From positions 248,001-312,000 of the forward strand of contig NZ_CP016617.1 in NCBI RefSeq assembly GCF_002741015.1: a stretch of 64,000 nucleotides of DNA, read 5' to 3'. Under the pieces are notes generated by a model, which saw only the letters and a program-made list of their open reading frames with translations, did no database searches and had not been told where the DNA came from. This document shows, piece by piece, positions 1,226-14,731 of the stretch; position 1 is the first letter of the stretch; each line of letters begins with the position of its first letter. The DNA is from Microvirga ossetica. GTDB taxonomy: Bacteria; Pseudomonadota; Alphaproteobacteria; Rhizobiales; Beijerinckiaceae. A program made the position numbers and the translations under genes.

Positions 1226-2233
1226 ATGCACAGCACTTCAACCCGCCGCCATATCCTCGCTGGCCTCACTACGACCGGGCTAGCCGCCCTGCTCGATGCC
1301 CGGAGAGCCTCCTCGGAGGAGGCTCCGCTTGATACCACCACCGTTCGCTTCTCGAAATCTCCTGGGATCTGCAACGCACCGCAGTTTGTGGCAGAAGACC
1401 TGCTCCGCGCCGATGGGTTTTCCGACTTCCGTTACGTGGATGCAGTGGCCGGTCTAACCGCGACCGCGATGCTGGCCCGCAGCGAAGTGGACTTTGTTGT
1501 TGAGTTCGGAACCGCTCTGGCTCTGCAGATCGATCAAGGGGCGCCCCTCAAGATCCTCACCGGCGTGCATGTCGGATGCTACGAACTTTTCGCGCATGAG
1601 GGCATCAATAGTGTCCTCGACCTGAAAGGCAAGACTGTCGGCGCCGGGCAAAATCTGGGGTCCGACCCGCATGTCTTTGTGACAGCAATGGCGACCCATG
1701 TCGGGCTTGATCCGCTCAAGGACATCAATTGGGTGACGAGTGACGTCAACCCGATGGAGCTGTTCACGCAGGGCAGGATCGACGCCTTTGTGGCCTTTCC
1801 GCCAGAGCCGCAGGAGCTCCGCGCCCGCAGGGTCGGCCATGTCATTGTCAACAGCATTCTGGACCGCCCCTGGTCCCAATACTACTGCTGCATGCTGGCC
1901 ACCAATGCGTCGTATCTGGAGAACTATCCTGCGGCCACCAAAAGGGTTGTGCGCGCTGTTCTCAAGGCGACTGATCTGTGCGTCTCGAATCCCGAGCAGG
2001 TGGCCACGCTCTTGGTGAATGGTGGCTATACCAAGCGGTACGATCCCGCCCTTCAAGCCCTCAAGGAGATCTCCTACGCCAAATGGCGGGACTACGACCC
2101 GGAGGATACGATCCGGTTCTACTCCTTGCGCCTGCATGAGGCCGGCATGATCAAGTCGAGCCCACAGAAGATCATCGCCAGCGGCACCGATTGGCGCTTC
2201 CTCAATGAGATCAGGCGTGAGTTGAAGACATGA
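1226..2233 (+). CDS. Tat-exported substrate-binding protein, NMT1/THI5-like fold (paralogue 1)
   Basis: The product has 335 residues. The ATG at 1226 follows GGAGGGG and gives an N-terminus with a twin-arginine (residues 7-8, TRRHILAG) and a hydrophobic stretch, as in Tat signals. The rest resembles the NrtA/SsuA/THI5-like SBP group: a strand with SPGIC, a GVHVGC turn, DLKGKTVG, an ELF..GRIDAF stretch and PWSQYYCCM. Cysteines 49, 118, 221, 222 and 252 are shared with the four paralogues in this window. The stop overlaps the next gene by four bases (ATGA). No permease or ATPase gene is near, so it may serve sensing rather than import. The ligand is unknown. Confidence 0.8.
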   Translation: MHSTSTRRHILAGLTTTGLAALLDARRASSEEAPLDTTTVRFSKSPGICNAPQFVAEDLLRADGFSDFRYVDAVAGLTATAMLARSEVDFVVEFGTALALQIDQGAPLKILTGVHVGCYELFAHEGINSVLDLKGKTVGAGQNLGSDPHVFVTAMATHVGLDPLKDINWVTSDVNPMELFTQGRIDAFVAFPPEPQELRARRVGHVIVNSILDRPWSQYYCCMLATNASYLENYPAATKRVVRAVLKATDLCVSNPEQVATLLVNGGYTKRYDPALQALKEISYAKWRDYDPEDTIRFYSLRLHEAGMIKSSPQKIIASGTDWRFLNEIRRELKT

Positions 2234-2814
2234 GCGGGCGGCTTGCATCCCTTCTGCTGGCAGCACTGCTGTCCTGCCCGGCGCAGAGCCACGACGCACC
2301 GCACAATCAGCGCTTACCGGTCATACGGACAGCACCGGACTTTACCCTGACGTCGCAGGATGGCAATCGCGTGTCGCTCCACGATTTCCGTGGCAAGGCG
2401 GTCGCTGTCACCTTCATCTTTGCGTCCTGCACGGACACCTGTCCGCTGCTGACCGACAACATGGCGCGCGTACAGGACAAGCTGGGTTCCGTGTTTGGCT
2501 CTAAGGTCGCCTTCGTGTCGATCACCGTCGATCCCGAGCGCGATACGCCCGAAGCACTGAAGCAATATGCGCAGAATTTCGGCGCCAACCTGAAAGGCTG
2601 GGCCTTTCTGACCGGTGACCCCGTTGTTATCCGTGAGGTTGAGCGAAAGTACGGCGTCTTCGCGAAGAAGACCGCGTCCGGCGACATCGACCACACCTTC
2701 CTGACGTCACTCATCGACCCGAAGGGAAACCTGCGTGTGCAGTATCTCGGCGTCCGGTTCGACCTGGAGGAGTTCCGCGGTGATCTTCTCAAGCTCCTCG
2801 ATGAGGCCGAATAG
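2230..2814 (+). CDS. SCO1/SenC-family copper or thiol protein
   Basis: This 194-residue protein has an N-terminal export signal ending in LLSC (Cys16), so it may be a lipoprotein. It has the thioredoxin-like SCO core: FASCTDTCP with the CxxxC pair at Cys67/Cys71, SITVDPERDTPE, and the distal His155 in DHTFL. SCO proteins use the two cysteines and the histidine to bind copper for cytochrome oxidase assembly or to act as thiol reductants. Here no oxidase gene is near. The gene overlaps the SBP upstream by four bases and the sensor kinase downstream by 14, so all three are probably translated together. That suggests a redox or metal role in the signalling block. Confidence 0.85.
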   Translation: MSGRLASLLLAALLSCPAQSHDAPHNQRLPVIRTAPDFTLTSQDGNRVSLHDFRGKAVAVTFIFASCTDTCPLLTDNMARVQDKLGSVFGSKVAFVSITVDPERDTPEALKQYAQNFGANLKGWAFLTGDPVVIREVERKYGVFAKKTASGDIDHTFLTSLIDPKGNLRVQYLGVRFDLEEFRGDLLKLLDEAE

Positions 2815-5425
2815 TATCAGGAACTGGCTGGTCGGCTGGGTCGCCCGGTTGCCGGCGCGCGTTCAGACCAAGCTGCTCGCCGCGTTTCTCTCCATCGTCG
2901 GGCTCCTCATCGTGCTTGGCGCGGTGGGGTTGCAGGTGCTAAGCGGGGTCAACGAGCAAACTGATGTGCTGATCCGTCAGCAGCGCAAGATTGCAGCCTA
3001 CCATCAGGTCCAGCACGATACCACGAGCCAGCTCTACAGCATCTCGACCGCACTCCTGCTGCAGGAGGACCGAATGCTCGATGCAGCGCTCCGTCAGCTC
3101 AGGCAGTTCGGCTACGATCTCGATCGCATGGAATTCATCGCCCGGGACGAGGCCGAGCTTCTTGCTCAAGTCCGCCAGGACTATGACCGCCTGACGGCTG
3201 AGGTGACACGGGTGGTGGACTTCATCCGCACCGGCCAGAGGGATGAAGCGCGGACAACGCAACTGGCACAGATCATGCCGCTGGCGGATCGTCTGGAACG
3301 GCTGACGAACCAGTTGGTCAACATCGCCGAGGCCGACATGGTGGACGCGATCGAGACGACCGAGCGGGCCTACGCCACCTCCCGGGCCGTCGTGATCTCG
3401 TTTGTCATCGGCAGTATCCTGTTGGCGCTCGGCCTTGGTTACATCATCTCATGGTCGCTAATCGAGCCGGTCAAGGAGATTGAGACCCATCTCAGCCAGA
3501 TCGCGGCCGGCGACTTTGCCCAGAAGGTCACGATCGCCAATCGGGACGAGCTCGGCGTGCTCGCTCAGAACGTCAATCGGACATCCGAGCAGCTCGGGCA
3601 GCTTTACCGGCAGATCGAGGCACGCACGCGAGAGCTCACCGAGGCGCTGACCTACCAGACCGCCACCGGTGAGGTACTCAAGGCCATTAGTCGTTCGACG
3701 CTTCACCTGCAGCCCGTGCTCGACACGTTACTGGAGACCGCCGCTCGGCTGTGCAGGGCCAACCGGGCCCTCCTGTTCCGCTTGGATAACGGACTTTACC
3801 GGCTCCGGGCCTCGTACGGCTTCTCTGACGAGTTCAAGCAGTTCCTTGAGAACAACCCCATCAGTCCGGATGCGATCGGCACCATTGTCGGGCGCACCAC
3901 CACGGAGCGACGCGTCCTCCACTATGAGGATATCGAGACGGACGACCGTTATATGTGGAAAGAAGCCCAGGCCTTCGGGGGCTTTCGCACCGTACTCGGT
4001 GTGCCCCTGCTGCGGGATGGGGAACCGATCGGCGCGATCGTGCTCTCTCGCCCCTATGTCGAACCCTTTACCGACAAGCAGATTGATCTGATCACGGTCT
4101 TTGCCGATCAGGCGGTGATTGCCATCGAGAATGCCCGCCTCGTCAGAGAGCTGAAGGAGCAGTCCGCCGCACTGGCCGCCTCGGTCGAAGAGCTAAAGGC
4201 TCTTGGTGAGACCGGTCAGGCCGTTAGCGGCACCCTCGACCTGACCCAAGTCCTCGATCTGGTCTCCAGCCGGGCCATGGCACTGGGCCAGGCGGATGCC
4301 TGTGGGCTGTTCCGCTACGATCGAACGAACCGTGCCTTCGTACTATGGCGGGCGAGCGGCCTTGATGAGGACTTTTCGGAGCGGATCCGCCACATCCGGA
4401 TCCTGGAGGTCGAGACAGCTATGGGACGTGCGATCCAGCAGCATGGCCCGGTCGCCGTCAGCGATATCATGAAACTGCCGAACTGGCCGCTGCGCGATGC
4501 CGCCGTCGGGGCCGGAATCCGGAGCGTTCTGGTTGTTCCACTCGTCCGGGCGGAACGGGTCTTCGGGACGCTCGTGCTGATGCGGCGGGAGCAAGCGGAG
4601 TTTCCCAGGCGGACCGTCGACCTGATGCAGACCTTCGCGAACCAGTCGGTGCTCGCCATCCAGAACGCACGGCTCTTCCGCGAGATCGAGGACAAGAGCC
4701 GTCAGCTCGAGATTGCGAGCCAGCACAAGTCGCAGTTCCTGGCCAACATGAGCCATGAGCTGCGCACCCCTCTGAATGCGGTCCTCGGCTATACGGAGAT
4801 GCTGCTCGATGGCGTCTACGGCGACGTGACTGGCGAAGCTCACGAGATCTTGGAGTACATTCAGGCGAACGGCCAGCACCTTCTGGCGCTCATCAATGAC
4901 GTGCTCGACCTCTCGAAGATCGAGGCCGGGCAGCTTGCGCTGGCGCTCGATGAGTATGCCGTCCAAGGCGTCATCGAGGCCGTGGCCTCTGTCGCCCAAC
5001 CGCTCGCCCAGACCAAAGGCCTCGACCTGAAGGTCGGCATCGCGGGGGATCTCCCGCTGGGACGGGGTGATGAACGGCGGCTCACCCAGGCTCTCCTCAA
5101 CCTTGTCGGCAACGCCATCAAGTTCACCGACGCAGGCTCGGTCACAATCGCCGCAACGGCGGTCGGTGACCTGCTGGAGCTAGCTGTGACTGACACTGGC
5201 CCGGGAATTGCCCCGACCGACCAGGAGCGGATCTTCGATGCCTTCCAGCAGGTCGACAATTCCTCAACCCGGCAAAAGGGCGGTACGGGTCTGGGGCTCG
5301 CGATCTCACGGCGCATCGTCGAGATGCATGGCGGGACGATCTCTGTGGAATCTGTCCCGGGGCAGGGTTCCACTTTCCGGATCAGGATCCCGCTTCAGGC
5401 TGGCGAAGTCATGGAGGCGGCGTGA
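2801..5425 (+). CDS. Membrane sensor histidine kinase (HAMP-GAF-GAF-HisKA-HATPase)
   Basis: Using the ATG at 2801, the protein has 874 residues. A membrane segment at about 24-48 and another at about 196-220 enclose a helical extracytoplasmic region of roughly 145 residues. HAMP follows (about 220-270), then two GAF domains (about 300-450 and 475-630). The dimerisation domain carries SHELRTPLNA with phospho-accepting His652, and the ATPase domain shows the N (NLVGNAIKF), G1 (DTGPGI), F and G2 (GTGLGLAIS) boxes. The start overlaps the SCO gene; an upstream start at 2735 would add 22 residues of uncharged text and is less likely. The kinase probably phosphorylates the receivers encoded next. 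Confidence 0.88.
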   Translation: MRPNSIRNWLVGWVARLPARVQTKLLAAFLSIVGLLIVLGAVGLQVLSGVNEQTDVLIRQQRKIAAYHQVQHDTTSQLYSISTALLLQEDRMLDAALRQLRQFGYDLDRMEFIARDEAELLAQVRQDYDRLTAEVTRVVDFIRTGQRDEARTTQLAQIMPLADRLERLTNQLVNIAEADMVDAIETTERAYATSRAVVISFVIGSILLALGLGYIISWSLIEPVKEIETHLSQIAAGDFAQKVTIANRDELGVLAQNVNRTSEQLGQLYRQIEARTRELTEALTYQTATGEVLKAISRSTLHLQPVLDTLLETAARLCRANRALLFRLDNGLYRLRASYGFSDEFKQFLENNPISPDAIGTIVGRTTTERRVLHYEDIETDDRYMWKEAQAFGGFRTVLGVPLLRDGEPIGAIVLSRPYVEPFTDKQIDLITVFADQAVIAIENARLVRELKEQSAALAASVEELKALGETGQAVSGTLDLTQVLDLVSSRAMALGQADACGLFRYDRTNRAFVLWRASGLDEDFSERIRHIRILEVETAMGRAIQQHGPVAVSDIMKLPNWPLRDAAVGAGIRSVLVVPLVRAERVFGTLVLMRREQAEFPRRTVDLMQTFANQSVLAIQNARLFREIEDKSRQLEIASQHKSQFLANMSHELRTPLNAVLGYTEMLLDGVYGDVTGEAHEILEYIQANGQHLLALINDVLDLSKIEAGQLALALDEYAVQGVIEAVASVAQPLAQTKGLDLKVGIAGDLPLGRGDERRLTQALLNLVGNAIKFTDAGSVTIAATAVGDLLELAVTDTGPGIAPTDQERIFDAFQQVDNSSTRQKGGTGLGLAISRRIVEMHGGTISVESVPGQGSTFRIRIPLQAGEVMEAA

Positions 5426-5787
5426 TGAAGCGCATCCTGGTGGTGGAGGACACCTGGCACAACCGCAAGATGCTGCGCGATCTGCTCACGCGGGCAGGCT
5501 TCGAGGTGCTGGAGGCGGTCAATGGCGAGGAAGGTATCGCCCAAGCCGAACGACACCGGCCCGACCTGATCCTGATGGACATCCAATTGCCGCTGGTGGA
5601 TGGCTACGACGCGACGCGGCGCATCAAGGCCAATCCGGACCTGCACCACATTCCGATCATCGCCGTCACCTCCTATGCCCTTGCTGGCGACGAGGCGAAG
5701 ACGCGTGAGGCTGGCTGTGACGGGTATGTCGCCAAGCCGTTCAGTCCACGCAATCTGCTGGCGAAAGTCCAGGAGTATCTCGCATGA
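5425..5787 (+). CDS. Single-domain response regulator (CheY/DivK-like)
   Basis: The 120-residue protein is only a receiver domain: acidic pair Glu8/Asp9, phospho-acceptor Asp52 in LILMDIQLP, a Thr/Ser after beta-4 (VTSYA) and the conserved Lys in VAKPF. The ATG at 5425 follows GGAGG at 5413-5417 and overlaps the kinase stop (TGATG), so the two are translationally coupled. With no output domain it may relay phosphate or bind a partner, as DivK does. The position between kinase and cyclase suggests it competes with, or passes phosphate to, the receiver of the cyclase. Confidence 0.88.
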   Translation: MKRILVVEDTWHNRKMLRDLLTRAGFEVLEAVNGEEGIAQAERHRPDLILMDIQLPLVDGYDATRRIKANPDLHHIPIIAVTSYALAGDEAKTREAGCDGYVAKPFSPRNLLAKVQEYLA

Positions 5788-5802
5788 AGAGGACACCCGG
5801 CC

Positions 5803-6981
5803 ATGCGTGATTTACCTCTTATTCTCGTGGTCGACGACACGCCGCAGAACCTTGACCTGATGACGCGTCGGCTCAGGAGCCACGGCTACGAGGTTGCGAC
5901 GGCCGGCGACGGCGAGGAGGCGCTTGCCCGGGTAGTGGAGCTCGAACCTGATCTGATCCTTCTGGACATCATGATGCCCAGGCTCGACGGGATCGAGACC
6001 GTCCGGCGACTAAAGGCCGACGCCGCGCACCGGCACATCCCCGTCATTCTCGTCACCGCCAAGTCGGACCCGCGGGACGTGATCGAAGGCCTCGATGCCG
6101 GTGGCGACGACTATCTGACCAAACCGATTGACCATGCCGCGTTGCTGGCGCGGGTCCGGTCCATGCTGCGGATCAAGGCGCTGCACGACACCGTCCAAGA
6201 CCAGGCCCGAGAACTGGCCACCTGGAACCAGCGACTCGAGCAGCGCGTCACCGAGCAGGTTGAGCAGATTGGCCGAATGGAGCGCCTGCGCCGGTTCCTG
6301 CCACCGCAAGTGGCGGATCTCGTGGTCGCAGGGCGGGGAGGAGCGGATCCCCTGGAGAGCCACCGGCGTGATGTCACGGTCGTGTTCGGGGATCTACGTG
6401 GTTTTACGGGCTTTGCCGAGACGGCGGAGCCGGAGGAAGTGATTACCGTGCTCCGGGAGTATCATACTGCGATCGGGCAGCTCGTGCTGCAGCTCGAGGG
6501 GACTCTGGAGCGCTTTGTCGGGGATGGCGTGCTGGTGCTGTTCAACGATCCGCTCCCGCAGCAGGATCATGCCGAGCGCGCGGTGAGGCTGGCGCTCCAC
6601 ATGCGCGAGCGCATTCATGTCCTGGCCGAAGGTTGGCGGAAACGAGGGCATGATCTCGGCTTCGGTGTTGGCGTTGCCCGAGGATACGCGACATTGGGCA
6701 GTGTTGGCTTCGAGCACCGGCAGGAATACTCGGTCATCGGCACGGTGCCAAACCTCGCATGCCGTTTATGCGGCGACGCGAAGCCTGGCCAGATCCTGCT
6801 GAGCCAGAAGGTCGTGGCTTCGGTCTACGGGAGGATTGAGGTCAGTCCGGTTGGCGATCTGACGCTAAAAGGGTTTCACAAGCCGGTCCCAGCCTTCGAG
6901 CTCGTCTCATGGTGTGGGTCGTGTGACGAGTCGAGACACGAGGCAGCTGGTGAAAGAGTCGAACAAGGAGACGTCCTTTGA
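5803..6981 (+). CDS. Response regulator with class III adenylate/guanylate cyclase output
   Basis: The 392-residue protein has a receiver at 1-120 (Asp11/Asp12, phospho-acceptor Asp55, Lys in YLTKPID), a coiled coil at about 130-165, and a class III cyclase domain from about 185. Both metal-binding aspartates are present (FGDLRGFTGF and FVGDGVLVLFND). The later motif reads YSVIGTVPNLACRL, with Thr where many cyclases have Asp, as in class IIIb. I cannot tell ATP from GTP specificity. The gene starts 15 bp after the single-domain regulator. Phosphorylation by the kinase upstream probably controls second-messenger synthesis. Confidence 0.87.
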   Translation: MRDLPLILVVDDTPQNLDLMTRRLRSHGYEVATAGDGEEALARVVELEPDLILLDIMMPRLDGIETVRRLKADAAHRHIPVILVTAKSDPRDVIEGLDAGGDDYLTKPIDHAALLARVRSMLRIKALHDTVQDQARELATWNQRLEQRVTEQVEQIGRMERLRRFLPPQVADLVVAGRGGADPLESHRRDVTVVFGDLRGFTGFAETAEPEEVITVLREYHTAIGQLVLQLEGTLERFVGDGVLVLFNDPLPQQDHAERAVRLALHMRERIHVLAEGWRKRGHDLGFGVGVARGYATLGSVGFEHRQEYSVIGTVPNLACRLCGDAKPGQILLSQKVVASVYGRIEVSPVGDLTLKGFHKPVPAFELVSWCGSCDESRHEAAGERVEQGDVL

Positions 6982-7153
6982 GAAAACCAAGACGCCTCCC
7001 GCTCCTGGCTCACAGATGCGCTGTCATTGAGGAATATGCCCACGAAACGCGGACGATTGCCGTCGAAGGAACAAGCCAGCTTACTTCAGCACGTTCCTGT
7101 GCGAGCAGAAGGTTTGAGCTGGCTGATCCGAGATCAACCGGAGGAGGCGCCCC

Positions 7154-8161
7154 ATGAATACCATTCAGACCCGCCGTCATGTCCTAACCGGCCTCACCGC
7201 CATCGGGCTTGTTCCACTGTTGAAACGTCCTGGAGCCTTCGCCGAGGAGGCTGCGCTTGAGACAACCTCTGTCCGCTTCGCACGGTCTCCGGGAATCTGC
7301 CTGGCACCGCAATTTGTGGCCGAAGAGCTGATCCGCGCTGATGGGCTCTCGGACTTCCGCTACGTGGATACACAGGCCAGCCTGACCTCGATAGCGCTGG
7401 CGGCGCGCGGTGACGTCGACTTCGTCGTCGAGTACGGAACTTTACTTGCCATTCGCATCGATCAGGGAGATCCGATCAAGGTGCTCAGCGGCGTGCATGT
7501 GGGCTGCTACGAGCTGTTCGCGCATGAGGGCATCAACAGCGTCCTCGACCTGAAGGGTAAGAGTGTCGCTGTGGGGGTGGCCCGCGGATCGGATCCGCAC
7601 GTCTACGTCAGTGCTATGGCAAGTTATGTCGGGCTTGATCCGCTCAAGGACATTGTTTGGGTGACGAGTGACGTCAACCCGATGGAGTTGTTCGCACAGC
7701 ACAAGGTTGATGCATTCCTTGCGGGACCGCCCGAGCCCCAGGAACTGCGCGCTCGCAAGATTGGCCATGTCATCCTCAACAGCCTCCAGGACCGACCCTG
7801 GTCACAGTATTTTTGCTGCATGCTGGCCGCCAATGCAGCTTATGCCGCGAAGTATCCAGCAGCCACCAAGAGGGTCTTGCGCGCTGTCCTCAAGGCCAAT
7901 GATCTGTGCGTCTCGGAGCCGGAACGTGTGGCCAGGCTTCTGATCAGCGATGGGTATGCCACACACTATGACTTGGCTCTGCAGACGCTCAGGGACATTC
8001 CTTATGCCAAATGGCGGGAGCTCGATCCGGAGGACACGATCAGGTTCTTCTCGTTGCGGCTTCGTGAGGGAGGTATGATCAAGTCGAGTCCGCAAAAGAT
8101 TATTGCCACTGGCACCGATTGGCGCTTTCTCAATGAGATCAAGCGTGAGTTGAAGACATGA
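7154..8161 (+). CDS. Tat-exported substrate-binding protein (paralogue 2)
   Basis: This 335-residue protein starts at an ATG behind GGAGGAGG and has a twin-arginine signal (TRRHVLTG). It is the closest relative of paralogue 1 and aligns almost without gaps: SPGIC, GVHVGCYELFAHEG, YVGLDPLKDI, PPEPQELRARKIGHVI, PWSQYFCCM and the C-terminal DWRFLNEIKRELKT. The cysteines fall at the same positions (49, 118, 221, 222, 252). It lies 172 bp after the cyclase gene, with its own ribosome site, and may share its transcript. No transport partner is encoded nearby. Confidence 0.8.
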   Translation: MNTIQTRRHVLTGLTAIGLVPLLKRPGAFAEEAALETTSVRFARSPGICLAPQFVAEELIRADGLSDFRYVDTQASLTSIALAARGDVDFVVEYGTLLAIRIDQGDPIKVLSGVHVGCYELFAHEGINSVLDLKGKSVAVGVARGSDPHVYVSAMASYVGLDPLKDIVWVTSDVNPMELFAQHKVDAFLAGPPEPQELRARKIGHVILNSLQDRPWSQYFCCMLAANAAYAAKYPAATKRVLRAVLKANDLCVSEPERVARLLISDGYATHYDLALQTLRDIPYAKWRELDPEDTIRFFSLRLREGGMIKSSPQKIIATGTDWRFLNEIKRELKT

Positions 8162-8364
8162 GCGAGTGGTCGTTGCACACCCGGTGACGGAATGGTCTCA
8201 GATGATCCTTCCAACGCACCGGGCCGCCATCGAGGCTCGTGCCGGATGAATGTATGGTAAAGGTCGGCATGAGAGGAGGCGAGAAGGTCTTTGTCTGCCA
8301 AGCGGTTCGATAGGTGTTTCTTTGCAGCCTGTCATACTGACCATCATTTGGAAGGGAGGTTCTC

Positions 8365-9387
8365 ATGCATACCCTATATGCTGGACCATTCAGCCGACGG
8401 AGGTTCCTTCGTGGGATTACGCTGGCGGGGACAGCGGGGCTCCTGGGCTGGCACCCCACGCGAGCCGCTGCGGAGCCGCCGCCTGAAACGACGCGGATCC
8501 GGCTCGTCCGGATTCCCAGCATCTGTCAAGCCCCTTCGTATGTAGCCGAAGAACTGCTGCGCAGCGAAGGGTTCACCGAGGTGCACTTCCTCCGAAAAGA
8601 GGGAACTGCAGACATCGAGTCGGCCCTCGCCTCCGGTGAAGCCGACCTCAATGGGCATTTCGCCGCCCCGCTCCTTCTCCGCCTGGAGGCGGGGGATCCC
8701 ATCATCATCCTGGCGGGACTCCACGTCGGCTGCTTTGAACTGTTCGGGACGGATCGGGTTCAGACGATCCGCGACCTCAAGGGGAAGACCGTGGCCGTGC
8801 CGGCGCTCGATTCCAGCCGATACGTCTTTCTCGCCAGTATGCCGGCGTATGTGGGCCTGGACCTCCATAAGGACATACACCTCGTCACGCATCCGGGACC
8901 CGAGTCCATCCGGCTCCTAAGTGAGGGGAAGATCGATGCCTACCTGGGCTTTCCCCCCGAACCGCAGGAGATGCGGGAGCGGCAGATCGGCCATGTGGTG
9001 ATTGACAGCACCGCGGACCGGCCCTGGTCGCGATACTTCTGCTGCATGCTGGCTGGGAATCGGGAGTTCGTCCGCACGTCTCCGGTGGCCACCAAACGCG
9101 CCCTCCGCGCCATCTTGAAAGCGGCGGATTTCTGCGCCAGCGAGCCCGAGCAGTCCGCGCAGTTCATGGTGGATCAGGGTTATACTAAGCGCTATGACCA
9201 TGCCCTCCAGGTCATGAAGAAGCTCCCCTACGGTCAGTGGCGTGAGTATAGCGCTGAGGACACTCTGCGCTTCTACGCCCTGCGCCTCCACGAGGTCGGG
9301 ATGCTCAACAGCAGCCCCCAGAAACTTCTCGCCCAGGGCACCGACTGGCGATTCTTCAACGAACTGAAGAAGGAGCTGAAGGGATAG
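8365..9387 (+). CDS. Tat-exported substrate-binding protein (paralogue 3)
   Basis: The 340-residue protein starts at an ATG after GGGAGG and carries the best Tat motif of the set (SRRRFLRG near residues 10-17). The mature part is more divergent from paralogues 1 and 2 but keeps IPSIC, GLHVGCFELF, DLKGKTVAV, PPEPQEMRERQIGHVV, PWSRYFCCM and DWRFFNELKKELKG. All five family cysteines are present, shifted by about five residues. It is 203 bp from paralogue 2, and no recognisable gene lies between them. Confidence 0.8.
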   Translation: MHTLYAGPFSRRRFLRGITLAGTAGLLGWHPTRAAAEPPPETTRIRLVRIPSICQAPSYVAEELLRSEGFTEVHFLRKEGTADIESALASGEADLNGHFAAPLLLRLEAGDPIIILAGLHVGCFELFGTDRVQTIRDLKGKTVAVPALDSSRYVFLASMPAYVGLDLHKDIHLVTHPGPESIRLLSEGKIDAYLGFPPEPQEMRERQIGHVVIDSTADRPWSRYFCCMLAGNREFVRTSPVATKRALRAILKAADFCASEPEQSAQFMVDQGYTKRYDHALQVMKKLPYGQWREYSAEDTLRFYALRLHEVGMLNSSPQKLLAQGTDWRFFNELKKELKG

Positions 9388-9461
9388 CGCTTGTTGGGCG
9401 CGTAAGTGTGGATATCTGCTGTTGACTGTGAACCAGCATCGAATGCCGCCCTTCAAGCTGA

Positions 9462-9492
9462 CTGTCTCACTGAGCACTCTGGCGTGAGACAG
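9462..9492. repeat. Inverted repeat with 9-bp perfect arms
   Basis: CTGTCTCAC at 9462-9470 and its exact complement GTGAGACAG at 9484-9492 flank 13 bases. GTGAGAC recurs at about 9526. It lies 75 bp after paralogue 3. There is no T-run, so it is a poor intrinsic terminator; it could be a protein site or an old IS end. Confidence 0.35.
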
Positions 9493-9637
9493 GCGATCTC
9501 ATGATTTCAGCGACTTAGCCTGTGTTGTGAGACGAAAGCTTGGACATTTAACCTGAGATTCTCGGTGGCTTTCGGCATGGCGTTGTCACGTTAACTGGCG
9601 CCAGGCGCACTGGGGCCAATTTGGTTGTCGGAGAGGC

Positions 9638-10339
9638 TCAAGCAGCAATGTTGGCCATAGCCTTCCATTCCGCCATGGCGTTGAGGCGGTGCAGATGGAT
9701 GGCAGGAGCAGAACGGCGGGAGCGGGGTGGAACGAAGAGATTGCGGACGGCCGAGAAGACGCTGACGAACCGCTGCAGGTAGCTGGGCGATCGAAAGCCT
9801 TGCATTGCCCGCTCTCGTCGACGGAAGGGCAGATGCGAATTCTCCGCCCGATTGTTGAGCCCCTTGTGCGAGCGGTGCTCGACTTCTCGCATAACCAGGC
9901 GCTGGGCGGCCGCGTAGGAGCCGAGCCTGTCGGTGATCATGCGCCGGGGTGGGCAGCCCTGCTTGCGCGAGAGACGCCTCAGCAAGCGCTTGGCAGCCGT
10001 GGTGTTGCGCCGGCTCTGAACGATCTCATCCAGGACGTATCCATCCTGATCCACCGCCCGCCACAACCAGTGCTTCTGGCCAGAGATCGTGACCACGACC
10101 TCATCGAGGTGCCAGATGTCGCGGCGGCTTGGCGTCTTGCGCCTGAGGCGGCGGGCGTAAGCCGGCCCGAACTTCAGCGCCCAGCGGCGGACCGTCTCGT
10201 AGGAGACGACAATGCCGCGCTCGAGCAGCATCTCCTCGACCAGCCGCAGGCTCAGAGGAAACCGGAAATACAACCAGACCGCATGGGCGATGATCTCAGG
10301 CACAAAGCGATGGCGTTTGTAACTGACAGGCTTGCTCAT
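9638..10339 (-). CDS. IS6-family transposase
   Basis: The 233-residue protein has an N-terminal zinc/HTH-like region (ETVRRWALKFG) and the DDE catalytic core: Asp in WHLDEV, Asp in MITDRLGSY and Glu in NRAENSH, with spacing usual for IS6. The basic RRRERAMQGF near the C-terminus is also typical. The gene looks intact. IS ends could not be fixed, though TCACGTTAAC occurs near 9585 and, in reverse, near 10375 where the IS110 element begins. It stands at the junction between the intact signalling block and the truncated second cyclase. Confidence 0.85.
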   Translation of the reverse strand: MSKPVSYKRHRFVPEIIAHAVWLYFRFPLSLRLVEEMLLERGIVVSYETVRRWALKFGPAYARRLRRKTPSRRDIWHLDEVVVTISGQKHWLWRAVDQDGYVLDEIVQSRRNTTAAKRLLRRLSRKQGCPPRRMITDRLGSYAAAQRLVMREVEHRSHKGLNNRAENSHLPFRRRERAMQGFRSPSYLQRFVSVFSAVRNLFVPPRSRRSAPAIHLHRLNAMAEWKAMANIAA

Positions 10340-10374
10340 GCCGGACCATCTACACCGCTCGAACTCATGTCCGG

Positions 10375-11799
10375 GTTAACGTGATGTCGTGGATGGCGCC
10401 CTCCACCAGCGTCGACGTGCCAGAATGGGCATGTTGAAGAACCGGAGAGGATCACTTCCATGTCTGAGATTGCCACGATCGGCCTTGATATCGCAAAGAA
10501 CGTCTTCCAGCTGCACGCGGTGGACAGGAGTGGAAAGATCGTCCTGCGCAAGGCGCTGCGGCGCAGCCAGGTGCAGGGGTTCTTCAGCAGGCTGCCGCCT
10601 TGCCTGATCGGGATGGAGGCCTGCGCGACGGCTCATCACTGGGCTCGGACGCTCATGGCTTTCGGGCATGACGTCCGTCTGATCCCGCCCGCCTACGTCA
10701 AACCCTATCTGCGCCGGCAGAAGAATGATGCCGCGGACGCGGCGGCGATCTGTGAGGCCGTCGCGCGGCCGTCGATGCGCTTCGTCCCGGTCAAAAGTCC
10801 ACAGCAGCAAAGCACTCTCATGCTACACAGAGCCCGCGATCTCCTGATCGGGCAGCGAACTGCCCTGATCAATGCCTTGCGCGGTCACTTTGCAGAGTTG
10901 GGCATCGTGGTGGCGCAAGGCGCTCGCAACACGCGCCAGCTGATCGCCTTACTCCACGAGGAGGCCAATCCAGACTTCCCCGCGGCAGCTCGAACTGCGC
11001 TTCAGCCTTTGGCCACGATGCTGCTCGGGATCGAGACGCAGATTGCCAAGCTCGATAAGGCCATTCTGGCGGCCCATCGCAGCGATCCGGTCAGCATGAG
11101 ACTGGCCGCCATCCCCGGCATTGGTCCGATTGTCGCTTCCTGTCTCGCGGCCAGCGTCCCGGACGCCAGCCTGTTCCAGGGCAGCCGGGAGTTCGCAGCC
11201 TATCTCGGCCTCGTGCCGCGGCAGCACTCAACCGGCGGTAAGGCGAGGCTGGGCTCCATCTCCAAGATGGGCAACCGGCACTTGCGCAAGCTGCTGGTCG
11301 TCGGTGCGCACGCTGCGCTCTACAGCATGAAGTCTGGCAAGACCAGGACGGCTATGGCTGACTGGGCCCGGTCTCTGCTGGCCAAGAAGCCGTTCAAGGT
11401 GGTCGCCGTCGCCTTGGCCAACAAGATGGCCCGGATCGCCTGGGCGGTGATGGCCAGGAGCACGACTTACGAGCCCGGGAGCAAGGGAGTTGCAGCGTCG
11501 GCGGCATAGGCGACCAGTTCAAACGATCTGCCCATAGGGCATCCCAGTTGGCACGGTGACGATGAGATGATGTGAAGCCAAAGCGGATATGGACCGCCGG
11601 ATCTGGCAAACCCGTGACGTTGTCTTGCGTCAGTCGAGCGCGATAATGTGAGAGGGACCAGCTTCCAGCGTAAAACATCAGGGCCGGCGGTCATGAAGCA
11701 CCGCGTTCAAAGGCCGGAGACATGACTGCACCCGCCCCGCTAGGCCTAAACGTCAACAACAATCACATTGCCAAACGGGCGCCATCCAGACATGACAAC
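10375..11799 (+). mobile_element. IS110-family element, copy 1
   Basis: The limits come from comparison with copy 2 at 54444-55857: the two are alike from GTTAACGTGATG to CCAGACATGACAAC and differ outside. The element is about 1425 bp and has no terminal inverted repeats, as is usual for IS110. Its right end falls directly inside a cyclase gene remnant. Confidence 0.75.
10460..11509 (+). CDS. IS110-family transposase (DEDD), intact
   Basis: The 349-residue protein starts at an ATG after GGAGAGG. The N-terminal RuvC-like domain has Asp9 in GLDIAKN, Glu in GMEACATAHHW and the acidic cluster in QKNDAADA. The C-terminal transposase-20 domain has IPGIGPIVASC and FAAYLGLVPRQHSTGGK. Both halves are complete, unlike copy 2 near 54.5 kb, so this copy is the likely active one. 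Confidence 0.9.
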   Translation: MSEIATIGLDIAKNVFQLHAVDRSGKIVLRKALRRSQVQGFFSRLPPCLIGMEACATAHHWARTLMAFGHDVRLIPPAYVKPYLRRQKNDAADAAAICEAVARPSMRFVPVKSPQQQSTLMLHRARDLLIGQRTALINALRGHFAELGIVVAQGARNTRQLIALLHEEANPDFPAAARTALQPLATMLLGIETQIAKLDKAILAAHRSDPVSMRLAAIPGIGPIVASCLAASVPDASLFQGSREFAAYLGLVPRQHSTGGKARLGSISKMGNRHLRKLLVVGAHAALYSMKSGKTRTAMADWARSLLAKKPFKVVAVALANKMARIAWAVMARSTTYEPGSKGVAASAA

Positions 11800-11800
11800 A

Positions 11801-12002
11801 TCCGGATTCGAGCGCCGGTTGGAGTACTCTGTCATCGGCACAATTCCAAACCTCGCCTGCCGACTGTGCGACGAGGCAAGGCCGGGGCAAATACTTGTGA
11901 CCGTCTCTGCAAGACAAAATCGAAGCTACTCCAGTCGGTCATTTAACGCTGAAGGGGTTCCATAAACCCGTCTCAGCGTTCCAACTCACCTCATCTCGAG
12001 GG
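11801..12002 (+). pseudogene. 3' remnant of a second class III cyclase gene
   Basis: Right after the IS110 end the frame reads GFERRLEYSVIGTIPNLACRL then DEARPGQIL, matching the intact cyclase at 5803-6981 near its C-terminus (GFEHRQEYSVIGTVPNLACR). After about 11895 the match continues in another frame with PVGHLTLKGFHKPVSAFQL, so there is also an indel of the central bases. Everything upstream of the YSVIG region is missing and replaced by IS110. The relic shows that a second cyclase once stood beside the minus-strand SBP pair. Confidence 0.75.
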
Positions 12003-12365
12003 TCACTCGACGGTAGAGCGCGCGCAAAAATCGCTGAAGAGGATGTGCAGTCTCCCTGATGCCGAAAGGCAGCATCCGGGGTATTTACTAGTGCAGCGAT
12101 GCTGTCTGTCGCGTGCCGGGAACGGAATTCGATCGAGGACTCTCCGATCGAGCGAATGTCGCTGATGGCAACGGTCTGACCTGAGCCCGACGGAATGTGC
12201 TGAAGGTCTCGCCTAAAGAGAGCCGCTTGATCATCGGGCGGAAGGCGACCGGTGATCGAAGCCAACCACGTGGAAGACATCCTCGCGGGTGGAGGCAGCT
12301 ATGTGCCGCCACAAACGTGCGCATGCATTGCAGCTGCAGCAAGTGGGCGTTGACCGAGAAAAGGG
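12003..12365. other. Intergenic stretch without a recognisable gene
   Basis: This lies between the cyclase remnant and the end of SBP paralogue 4. Short open frames occur on both strands, but none has a ribosome site or known motif. Confidence 0.4.
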
Positions 12366-13394
12366 TCAGCCTCCAAGTTCACGTCGAACCTCATTGAGGA
12401 ACCGCCAGTCGGCTCCATCTGCGATGATTTTCGCGGGGCTCGATTTCAGCATCCCCGATTCGCGCAGCCGAAGCGCGTAAAAACGGATTGTGTCCTCGGG
12501 ATCATAATCACGCCAGCGGTTGTACGGCACGTCCGCAAGCGTCTGAACCGCATAGTCCAAGCGCGGCGTGAAGCCCCTATCTACCATACGCTGCGCAACA
12601 AGGGTTGGCTCGCTCACGCACAAATCTGTCGCCCGCAGCATGGCACGCACCACACGTTTAGTAGCGATGGGATTTTTTCGGACAAATTCTCGATCCCCCG
12701 CCAACATGCAGCAAAAATATTGCGACCAGGGACGATCCTGCGCACTGTTGAGGATAACATGACCGATGTTCTGCGCACGCAAACGCTGTGGTTCTGGAGG
12801 AAATCCGAGGAAGGCGTCGATCTTGCCCTCGGTAAACAACTCGATAGGTTTGACCTTCGCGCTCGTCACCCACTCGATATCCTTGACGGGATTAAGTCCA
12901 ACAAGCGTCGCCATCGCGCTGAGGAAAACGTGTTGGGGTGACTCAAGCCCCTGAATGCCGACGGTTCGACCCTTCAAACCGGCGACGCTGCGTACGTCCT
13001 CCTTGGCGGATAGCTCGAAACAGCCGACATGAACCCCCGCCAGAACGGTAACGCCAAGGCCCCGTTCGATCGCAAGAAGAAGTGGACCAGAGAAATCCAC
13101 GTTGAAGTCGAGATCTTTCCCCAATGTTTTATTTTGGTACACACCGCTACCAAGTTCAACGTAGCCAGCATCAACGTAAACGACGTTTGTGAACCCCTCG
13201 GCGTTTAGCAGGTCGCTTACCACGTACTGTGGGGCTATGCAGATGCCCGGGCTCTTCACGAGGCGGATTGTCGTCGTCTCTGGGGGCGGATCATCGATCA
13301 CTTCTGCCCTGAGCCGAGCCGCAGTGCTCCAAAATAGCGCGGTCGAGCCAGCACATGCCCCAGCCAATAGCAAGTCGCGACGATTCGGATGCAT
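12366..13394 (-). CDS. Tat-exported substrate-binding protein (paralogue 4)
   Basis: The 342-residue protein starts at 13394 behind GAGGAGG. The signal has RRDLLLAG, a weaker twin-arginine match. The mature part keeps SPGICIAPQY, GVHVGCFELS, DIEWVTS, PPEPQRLRAQNIGHVI, PWSQYFCCM and DWRFLNEVRRELGG, plus a short insertion near residue 75 relative to the other copies. The family cysteines are conserved. It is encoded opposite to paralogues 1-3 and downstream of paralogue 5 on the same strand. Confidence 0.8.
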   Translation of the reverse strand: MHPNRRDLLLAGACAGSTALFWSTAARLRAEVIDDPPPETTTIRLVKSPGICIAPQYVVSDLLNAEGFTNVVYVDAGYVELGSGVYQNKTLGKDLDFNVDFSGPLLLAIERGLGVTVLAGVHVGCFELSAKEDVRSVAGLKGRTVGIQGLESPQHVFLSAMATLVGLNPVKDIEWVTSAKVKPIELFTEGKIDAFLGFPPEPQRLRAQNIGHVILNSAQDRPWSQYFCCMLAGDREFVRKNPIATKRVVRAMLRATDLCVSEPTLVAQRMVDRGFTPRLDYAVQTLADVPYNRWRDYDPEDTIRFYALRLRESGMLKSSPAKIIADGADWRFLNEVRRELGG

Positions 13395-13735
13395 CAGGAC
13401 CTCCTCGAAATCGGCTTAGACGGTAGGGCTTCCGGGGGGCCGAAGTCGGGCCGACCGTGTTTGCGCGGACTTAAGGCCCCCGCTGGCGACGAAACTAGCA
13501 CATCTGCGCTATGTCGGATATGCCCGGGGACTGACACAATGGCGATAAGCTGATCTTGACCCGTTGTGTAGCGCTCGTTGCAGAGGCTCGAACCAGCAGC
13601 CCGACTCCCATGAACCGAGCGCCGGAGCACCGGAGATTGGCGAGGACGGGCCACACTCCGGGTCATCTTGCCGCCCTGCGGGCCGCAATTATGCCCTGAG
13701 CCTCCTGACGTGGCGAGCAATCAATTGCTATCCAT
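13395..13735. other. Spacer between SBP paralogues 5 and 4
   Basis: These 341 bp separate two minus-strand SBP genes. Apart from the GAGGAGG leader of paralogue 4 at its low end I see no gene, terminator or clear promoter. Confidence 0.4.
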
Positions 13736-14731
13736 TCACGTTTTCATCTCCCGCCTTAGCTCGTCGAGGAAGCGCCAGTCTGTAAATTTCGAGATAACGT
13801 CTTTTGGCGTCTTTTTGATCATTCTCACTTCAGACAGCCGCAGGGTAAAGAAACGCACGGTGTCTTCTGGGTCATACTCTCGCCACAAGCCGTAGCGTGC
13901 GTCTTTCAGGATTGTCAGCGCACACTCGGGCGAGAAGCCGACATCGGCCATCCGTCGCGCCGCCATCTCTGATTGCGTGTGGCAGATGTCAGTCGCTTTC
14001 AAGATAGCACGCAACATACGCTTGGTCGCGACCGGGTTCCTGCTCACAAAATCGGCATTGGCGGTCACCATGCAGCAGAAATAGTTAGACCAGGGGCGAT
14101 CATCGGCAGTATTGACGACGACGTGCCCGACGTTGCGCATGCACGGCTGCGAGGGCTCAGGCGGGGCGCCGATGAAGGCATCGATCTCACCGGCGGTGAA
14201 GAGGTCGGCCTGGCTCACCGACGAATTTGTCACCCATTTGATGTCCTCTCCGGGGTCGACTCCGACATAAGAGGCCATCGCGCTTACCAGCAGATGATCT
14301 GCTGCGCCGATGGCGGAGACTCCCACCCGTGTTCCTCGCAAGTCCCCGATGCTCTTGATGCTGTCCTTGGCACGCAGTTCCATGCATCCCACGTGAACCC
14401 CGGATAGTATCGTCAAGGGTCTGCCGACATCGACAAGCGGGAGAAAGTCGACGCAGGCCTCAAGGCTGACGTCGATCTCGCCATCCGCCACCATGCCCGC
14501 TGAAATAATCGGTGTTGGCACATAGCGGACTTCGGCAAAGCCTTCTCCAAGAAGCAGATCTTTGGCGAGGTATAGTGGCGCCATGCACGCGGCAGGGATT
14601 GCGGGGAGGCGGATGGTGGTCGTTTCCGGGGGCGGCTCAGCCCAAGCTGGTGCCGAGGTGCCGATAAGGCCTGCAGTGCCAGCAGCCGTTAGGCCAGCTA
14701 GGAAAGTGCGGCGATCTTGAATGATCTGCAT
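13736..14731 (-). CDS. Tat-exported substrate-binding protein (paralogue 5)
   Basis: The 331-residue protein starts at 14731 after AGGAGGG and has a Tat-like signal (DRRTFLAG followed by an Ala/Gly-rich stretch and AWA). It is the most divergent member (AACMAPLYLAKDLL, GVHVGCMELRAKDS, PWSNYFCCM, RWREYDPEDTVRF-like region) but keeps all five cysteines and the DWRFLDELRREMKT end. It has two CC-flanking changes (CCMVTAN instead of CCMLA). No transporter genes are adjacent. Confidence 0.8.
   Translation of the reverse strand: MQIIQDRRTFLAGLTAAGTAGLIGTSAPAWAEPPPETTTIRLPAIPAACMAPLYLAKDLLLGEGFAEVRYVPTPIISAGMVADGEIDVSLEACVDFLPLVDVGRPLTILSGVHVGCMELRAKDSIKSIGDLRGTRVGVSAIGAADHLLVSAMASYVGVDPGEDIKWVTNSSVSQADLFTAGEIDAFIGAPPEPSQPCMRNVGHVVVNTADDRPWSNYFCCMVTANADFVSRNPVATKRMLRAILKATDICHTQSEMAARRMADVGFSPECALTILKDARYGLWREYDPEDTVRFFTLRLSEVRMIKKTPKDVISKFTDWRFLDELRREMKT

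Follow-up and report, generated by a model that had tools for sequence, protein, structure and literature searches.

Importer-type binding proteins as candidate exchangeable receptors for a bacterial kinase–cyclase pathway

What do several importer-type substrate-binding proteins (SBPs) do when the genes beside them encode a histidine kinase and a nucleotide cyclase? This question is raised by a 64-kb stretch of Microvirga ossetica DNA (NZ_CP016617.1, positions 248,001–312,000; hereafter the window), which lies on a 1.34-Mb contig of a 9.63-Mb genome. At positions 1226–6981 of the plus strand, the window encodes an SBP, an SCO1/SenC-family protein (SCO), a histidine kinase, a receiver and a receiver-cyclase, in that order, with four SBP paralogues after them. 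SBP1 and its paralogues belong to the NMT1 fold and carry signals for twin-arginine translocation (Tat). We propose that they may act as receptors for the kinase. The genes are as follows.

1226–2233, plus strand: SBP1, Tat-exported NMT1-fold binding protein of 335 amino acids (aa), with C49, H115, C118, C221, C222 and C252
2230–2814, plus strand: SCO1/SenC protein, with a CxxxC motif (C67, C71) and a distal H155
2801–5425, plus strand: histidine kinase, with a first transmembrane segment, a periplasmic four-helix bundle (about residues 48–195), a second transmembrane segment, HAMP, two GAF domains, HisKA and HATPase_c
5422–5787, plus strand: stand-alone receiver, starting at a GTG or possibly at the ATG at 5425
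5803–6981, plus strand: receiver-class III nucleotide cyclase, 392 aa, keeping D197, D241, N317 and R321, with R237 in place of the base-recognition Lys
7154–8161, plus strand: SBP2, 72% identical to SBP1 and grouping with it in a Microvirga set
8365–9387, plus strand: SBP3, 49% identical to SBP1, an orthologue common to Mesorhizobium, Ensifer and Rhizobium
12366–13394, minus strand: SBP4, closest to a Bradyrhizobium SBP (83%)
13736–14731, minus strand: SBP5, closest to a Mesorhizobium ventifaucium SBP (65%)
9638–10339, minus strand: IS240/IS6-type transposase, a neighbour outside the system that splits the SBP array
10460–11509, plus strand: IS110-type transposase, likewise an outside neighbour splitting the array

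All module genes are intact open frames at the positions first assigned to them, and the chain described in the initial annotation was borne out: SBP1 and SCO overlap by 4 bases, SCO and the kinase by 14, the kinase and receiver by 4 (GTG start at 5422) or by the single base originally described (which needs the ATG at 5425), and a 15-base gap precedes the receiver-cyclase. The four additional paralogues also stand in both orientations as claimed, SBP2 and SBP3 on the plus strand and SBP4 and SBP5 on the minus strand; they are 47–72% identical to SBP1, and both transposase genes sit between SBP3 and SBP4. Three-seed models found no NitT/TauT-type permease or ATPase in the 64-kb window, in line with the claim that these SBPs lack ATP-binding cassette (ABC) partners there. 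The five SBPs are the sole close members in the genome (the next best match has 26% identity), and the closest named records are from Microvirga: M. calopogonii (97% identity over SBP1) and plasmid pMVF16-4 of Microvirga sp. VF16.

The gene order recurs far beyond this strain. Scanning 84,980 genomes, one per species, with an SBP alignment returned 90 relatives, the best 80 of which were kept, giving 68 loci; these were annotated with module profiles for SBP, SCO, kinase sensor, kinase core, receiver and cyclase, each drawn from three modules, and with importer profiles (permease, ATPase and SBP) built from three true importers. A module kinase was present in 54 of the 68 loci, and in 54 of 54 the next profiled gene upstream was an SBP or an SBP–SCO pair, the gene linkage seen for SBP-activated kinases. 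The complete SBP–SCO–kinase–receiver–cyclase order, a search for which the initial annotation had proposed, was found in 36 loci, and SBP followed by SCO in 50, across several phyla; the SCO–kinase link is not peculiar to one strain. Six loci show the order without SCO and sometimes without the receiver (four from Bradyrhizobium, one from an unclassified proteobacterium and one from Chloroflexota), and L066 is an additional full module outside the count, its SCO split over two frames. Hosts include rhizobia, Acetobacteraceae, Beta- and Deltaproteobacteria, Rokubacteria, Eisenbacteria and Chloroflexota, and the recurrence of the order in such distant phyla is far beyond chance. Spacing is mostly tight: the SBP stop lies within 150 bases of the SCO match in 42 of 47 loci (the rest at 188, 622, 672, 1059 and 1478, with an unprofiled frame between the two genes in L060 and L067), SCO lies within 150 bases of the kinase in 46 of 47, and 15–107 bases separate SBP and kinase in the six SCO-less loci. 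Each kinase-bearing locus carries between one and seven SBPs. Relatives of these SBPs are not regularly encoded with transporter genes: an importer permease occurs in a single locus (L045), closer to another SBP, and 8 of the 68 include an importer-type ATPase gene at some point; around outgroup SBPs, the same permease model did detect permeases. Neither condition named in the initial annotation as refuting its reading applied, which supports that reading. Some kinase loci without a detected cyclase lie on contigs that end; L062, L067 and L076 run on for kilobases without one, and in L064 a receiver is accompanied by a weaker match to the cyclase.

SBPs of the signalling clade (delimited below) and the kinase sensor domain also occur together when whole genomes are compared. 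In the family set of 397 genomes, clade SBPs were found in six and the sensor domain in four, all four among those six; four more family genomes, matching the SBPs at about 1e-31, encode importers. The chance of this overlap, with the window's genome excluded, is 1e-6 if genomes are treated as independent, which they are not. The SBP–SCO–kinase order was present at all four sensor loci fetched from three other family genomes. Clade SBPs occurred in 3 of 397 genomes of the order-wide set, and in the two other than the window's the kinase adjoins the SBPs, with SCO in one and none in the other. Among 72,556 plasmid records the sensor matched 11; only three matches span most of the domain, each accompanied by SBP and SCO. 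In the class set 35 of 385 genomes matched the sensor at 1e-10; the best match outside the window's genome (1.4e-18) was a chemoreceptor, and most others listed start after residue 100, on the HAMP side. These sensor-first searches of family, plasmids and class found no near-full-length sensor domain apart from clade SBPs. A short 73%-identity match to the kinase HAMP region lies in two pieces in Sinorhizobium fredii (NZ_CP035038.1:998293-998483) and is perhaps a module remnant.

The SBPs share a Cys/His site with a group of true importers. All five in the window score above both cut-offs of NMT1 and NMT1_2 (Pfam PF09084 and PF13379), and reach 58–71 bits with the SsuA model TIGR01728, below its curated cut-off of 163.5. 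An AlphaFold2 model of SBP1 (mean predicted local distance difference test score (pLDDT) 92.1) adopts the CmpA/NrtA/SsuA/THI5 fold, with 3qsl as top Foldseek match; a PDB sequence search for SBPs of the Cys/His clade found no close member. Across 195 SBPs (frames scoring above 300, with L017 and L026 left out as near-copies), C221 and C222 were present in all 195, C118 in 194, H115 and C252 in 191 each, and C49 in 190 (5 gaps). The claim of Tat export held, as the twin-arginine motif RRx[FLVWIM] was found in 42 of 42 diverse signalling SBPs and in 16 of 16 importer relatives. In a wider database search, 7,997 of 8,000 scored candidates reached E 1e-40 or better against the SBP alignment, which points to a large family, though this measures alignment and not clade; among the 120 matches listed every named one carries a transport-protein name. 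One database protein, P0005 (524 aa), is an apparent tandem fusion of parts of two family SBPs, with FCGM in its second half for the usual FCCM.

The closest outgroup SBPs are ABC-importer SBPs, encoded on replicons of Paracoccus, Haematobacter, rhizobia and Methylobacteriaceae; these SBPs carry C49, H115, C118, C221 and C222 without C252. In an importer-rooted FastTree phylogeny of 113 rows (without L011–L013, L017, L026, SBPs shorter than 290 residues and near-identical rows, 179 being reduced to 103), the signalling SBPs form one clade, split from the importers with full support. Residues fixed in the signalling clade alone are E36, E120, R199, P215, S217, Y219, R240, C252, W287, R288, D294, R297, F298, L301, R302, P313 and E332; 11 of these 17 lie beyond residue 239 and make up what we regard as a candidate docking face. 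Both clades keep, at 90% or more, C49, P52, G105, G113, H115, G117, C118, L133, G135, G160, D162, P163, A187, C221, C222, A244, P256 and F325, and on this alignment the Cys/His set is, apart from D162, the sole reactive chemistry common to the two.

Within the signalling clade, the five SBPs of the window occupy four separate positions: SBP1 with SBP2; SBP3; SBP4 with Bradyrhizobium; and SBP5 with a Mesorhizobium SBP. SBP3 sits among rhizobial orthologues within a clade (support 85) otherwise made up of Rokubacteria, Deltaproteobacteria, Betaproteobacteria, Eisenbacteria and others. The position next to SCO is scattered across the tree, and the idea of a special core paralogue beside SCO or the kinase was rejected, as that label needs 25 changes against 26.0 in shuffles. 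The third SBP of strain VF16 (L011:27055-28068) is a chimera, its first few codons from SBP3 and the rest from SBP5, in inverted orientation, which indicates that SBP arrays recombine. We read the array as one assembled from exchangeable parts.

The gene content of nineteen importer and comparison loci was examined (10 plasmid matches picked for diversity from 60 listed, 6 others and 3 Methylobacteriaceae stretches); the loci were chosen, and counts among them are not frequencies. In sixteen, an SBP carries the site, and L147 among them also has Cys at 252. All but L146 of these 16 match the permease and ATPase models, and 13 encode relatives of an acyl-CoA-dehydrogenase-type and a luciferase-type protein of Paracoccus; neighbours are named solely after the Paracoccus proteins. 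The former matches SfnB best (129.8 bits, below the cut-off of 430.9) and the latter alkanesulfonate monooxygenase (228.7 bits, below 510; both NCBIfam). YcnI and/or CopC/CopD genes occur in 8 of the 16, the DUF1775 (YcnI), CopC and CopD matches of the Paracoccus proteins being above Pfam cut-offs, and some loci also encode cysteine synthase, cysteine dioxygenase or transsulfuration enzymes. Three comparison importers without the full site (L106, L107 and L135, too few to weigh) gave no YcnI or CopD match; L107 and L135 retain C49 and C222. L133:5578-12677 and L136–L140 hold a conserved operon of SfnB-like dehydrogenase, monooxygenase, Tat-SBP, permease, ATPase, YcnI and CopC/CopD, an importer that joins organosulfur-type and copper genes and is apparently uncharacterised, although no literature search was aimed at it. 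Two reports describe Bacillus subtilis YcnI as a copper-binding protein encoded in a copper-uptake operon (PMC8424229, PMC12362106).

From the gene content, order, conservation, co-occurrence, residue patterns and relatedness above, we infer the SBP–kinase contact, the role of SCO, the ligand class and the cyclase output of the following scheme, in which importer-type SBPs became interchangeable receptors for a kinase–cyclase pathway (probability roughly 0.7). Several Tat-exported NMT1-fold SBPs would bind a periplasmic signal through a predicted site of C49, H115, C118 and C221–C222, to which C252, nearly confined to the signalling clade, adds. The co-encoded SCO would, most likely, load or reduce this site. 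Clade-specific residues, many of which belong to the C-terminal helices, would then let loaded SBPs dock on the periplasmic four-helix bundle of a kinase that they all share. That kinase would phosphorylate both the stand-alone receiver and the receiver-cyclase and so affect a cyclic nucleotide. With different SBPs gained by and shuffled among lineages, one kinase could receive several inputs, the likeliest signal class being copper, a copper complex, or an organosulfur or thiol ligand.

The kinase matches 4HB_MCP_1 (27.9 bits, barely above the cut-off of 27), HAMP, two GAF domains, HisKA and HATPase_c, and residues 1–285 were modelled with AlphaFold2 at a mean pLDDT of 78.4. Its periplasmic domain is the most conserved part of the kinase and, as judged by that conservation, is under strong constraint, yet it has no invariant Cys or His: in an alignment of 13 sensors, H72 is kept in nine and M180 in all 13. 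Metal or thiol chemistry is therefore more likely to sit in the SBPs and SCO than in the kinase sensor. Pfam assigns Response_reg to the stand-alone receiver and Response_reg plus Guanylate_cyc to the receiver-cyclase. In class III cyclases two Asp residues bind metal, an Asn and an Arg stabilize the transition state and, in the adenylate cyclases, a Lys recognizes the base; D197, D241, N317 and R321 are each present in 43 of 44 module cyclases. The window's SCO scores 119.8 bits against SCO1-SenC (cut-off 22.8), and CxxxC with a distal DH is found in 50 of 50 module SCOs (48 by script and 2 by eye). Loss of SCO was considered as a correlate of loss of the Cys/His site and rejected.

Several observations weigh against the receptor scheme. 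The sensor's helical-bundle fold match is weak; the matches listed for it include the helical-bundle TorS–TorT and LytS–XylFII complexes, and designed bundles score equally. According to a report on SBP-activated kinases, three SBPs encoded near AgtS and AruS of Pseudomonas aeruginosa failed to activate these kinases (PMC11113362); adjacency of SBP and kinase genes, having failed there as a predictor, is no proof of coupling. Fourteen of the 68 loci have no kinase: five end at most 2.6 kb past the last SBP (two of which, L050 and L055, already show SCO), and nine hold genuine lone SBPs, although one of these, L074, has just 3.4 kb of downstream sequence and five come from strains that, by strain name, carry a module elsewhere. 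The gap between SBP and SCO exceeds 600 bases in 4 of 47 loci, with a maximum of 1478. Family genomes G074 and G393 (the latter a 780-contig assembly) have clade SBPs and no full sensor match. SCO is missing from six otherwise normal modules, and is thus not indispensable; their SBPs keep the Cys/His site, which weighs against SCO being required for it. H115 and C118 occur in one of the two patterns used for searching, and their conservation is thus selected in part; that of C49, C221, C222 and C252 is not. Copper genes accompany only one importer subclade, organosulfur-type genes a wider range. Finally, the base-recognition Lys of the cyclase is not kept (Arg in 40 of 44, Gln in 3, His in 1); with the change to Arg so widely shared, the module cyclases may depart from the rule that normally predicts the product, though they may still have adenylate cyclase activity.

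Within the receptor scheme, copper may take part, at somewhat less than even odds: the idea comes from the SCO of the signalling clade together with the YcnI and CopC/CopD genes of one importer subclade. Alternatively, the SBP cysteines could be a redox switch or form disulfides and SCO could be a thiol-disulfide oxidoreductase, so that the same receptors would report periplasmic redox state or a thiol or organosulfur compound instead of copper, a serious contender that falls short of probable. The match of the window's SCO to AhpC-TSA and Redoxin and its CxxxC motif agree with such a role, and the organosulfur idea draws on the wider genomic context of the importer relatives, with SfnB-like and monooxygenase-like relatives (both below their cut-offs) at 13 of the 16 chosen loci and genes of cysteine metabolism at some. 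Set against this are the presence in the site of H115, conserved in both clades as in metal sites, and the copper-uptake genes of one importer subclade; SCO, moreover, is classically a copper chaperone. The sole YcnI gene of the window's genome (G000:C1:2762418-2763830) lies about 0.6 kb from another of the genome's three SCO genes. A copper–thiol complex would fit both the copper and the organosulfur contexts. More tentatively, the SBP arrays might constitute a widespread class of extracytoplasmic sensor, in which metal-loaded (probably with copper) or thiol-reactive SBPs, serviced by SCO, are exchangeable receptors of one kinase–cyclase pathway and report copper complexes or organosulfur ligands in soil and at plant roots.

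The SBPs could instead still be uptake proteins whose permease is encoded elsewhere, with the kinase merely reporting the same nutrient or transporter. Their closest relatives are importer SBPs with permease and ATPase models matching beside nearly all those examined, and the nine lone SBPs lie away from any module kinase. We nevertheless consider this unlikely, given the near-absence of the importer permease from the 68 loci, the fully supported split from the importers with fixation of residues of their own, many of them C-terminal, and the lack of any near-full-length sensor domain found without clade SBPs.

A smaller chance attaches to the SBPs being enzymes that modify a ligand and report it by altered conformation, after the manner of THI5, a single-turnover pyrimidine synthase, or DszB. 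THI5 is a neighbour in sequence and fold, and DszB has the same fold; in a HMMER alignment the SBP CC pair falls on part of the THI5 CCCFC stretch. The THI5 motif itself is not found in the SBPs, however, where CC is mostly followed by Met; no biosynthetic gene was prominent among the recurrent neighbours inspected, and tandem arrays of exported proteins tied to a kinase suit receptors better. The THI5 enzyme uses Fe(II), pyridoxal phosphate and an active-site His, according to one report (PMC10848271). Genetic hitch-hiking, in which mobile elements would carry the genes together although these are not functionally coupled, is very improbable: the module does occur on plasmids and beside transposases, and sporadically in the order (3 of 397 genomes), but its gene order and close spacing are kept across distant phyla, no outside neighbour is widely recurrent, and the sensor domain is strongly constrained.

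SBP-activated kinases are an established kind, with LuxP–LuxQ, TorT–TorS and XylFII–LytS as examples; like the module, these pairs combine a periplasmic binding protein with a membrane kinase, and the TorS and LytS sensors are helical bundles. All three pairs use other SBP folds and one SBP per kinase. The module differs in its one to seven SBPs per locus, Cys/His site, Tat export, SCO and cyclase output; multiple SBPs with such a site, SCO and a cyclase but no transporter are an unusual combination. An SCO gene adjoins a two-component system also in Rhodobacter, where PrrC/SenC accompanies PrrBA/RegBA, a system with a different kinase, a DNA-binding regulator and no SBPs. NMT1 importers such as that of Paracoccus denitrificans PD1222 (PDEN_RS24925) share the Tat signal and C49, H115, C118, C221 and C222, but lack the signalling-specific residues (the Paracoccus ones have Thr at 252) and are encoded with permease, ATPase, SfnB-like and monooxygenase genes, often also YcnI and CopC/CopD. 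The binding proteins CmpA, NrtA and SsuA, about 15% identical to SBP1, have permease partners. THI5/THI13 pyrimidine synthase shares the NMT1 fold and a cysteine stretch at the same alignment position, but is a cytosolic enzyme with CCCFC, whereas the module SBPs have CC and a Tat signal. Module cyclases keep the metal-binding Asp and the Asn/Arg of CyaB-type class III cyclases, and differ from them in the Arg for Lys and the fused receiver. Many SBP-activated kinases are encoded next to their sbp gene, as the report on them states (PMC11113362). Among open-licence papers, we found none whose title or opening lines of abstract describe an SBP–SCO–kinase–receiver–cyclase module.

If the receptor scheme is right, the two clades would record an uptake protein recruited as a receptor, with one five-residue Cys/His site encoded beside transporter genes in one clade and in a kinase–cyclase operon in the other, and a set of SBPs that all report to one kinase would be the bacterial counterpart of a repertoire of receptors served by a common transducer. 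The module would also offer handles on the ligands of NMT1 SBPs with metal-type sites, on SCO proteins in signalling operons and on the inputs of rhizobial orphan cyclases.

Clustering of neighbouring genes at the module loci, as a clue to the ligand, gave apart from shadow frames only sporadic clusters, none near-universal. The recurrent ones comprise an ATPase cluster (9 loci), a 592-aa cyclase-like protein (7 loci) and 324-aa SBP-like proteins (6 loci), which we take to resemble PF04392-type SBPs. SBP-like proteins of a second type, presumably also PF04392-like, lie beside some modules of Rokubacteria and Deltaproteobacteria (L067:6471-9559, L060:12833-13882 and L048:2976-3998).

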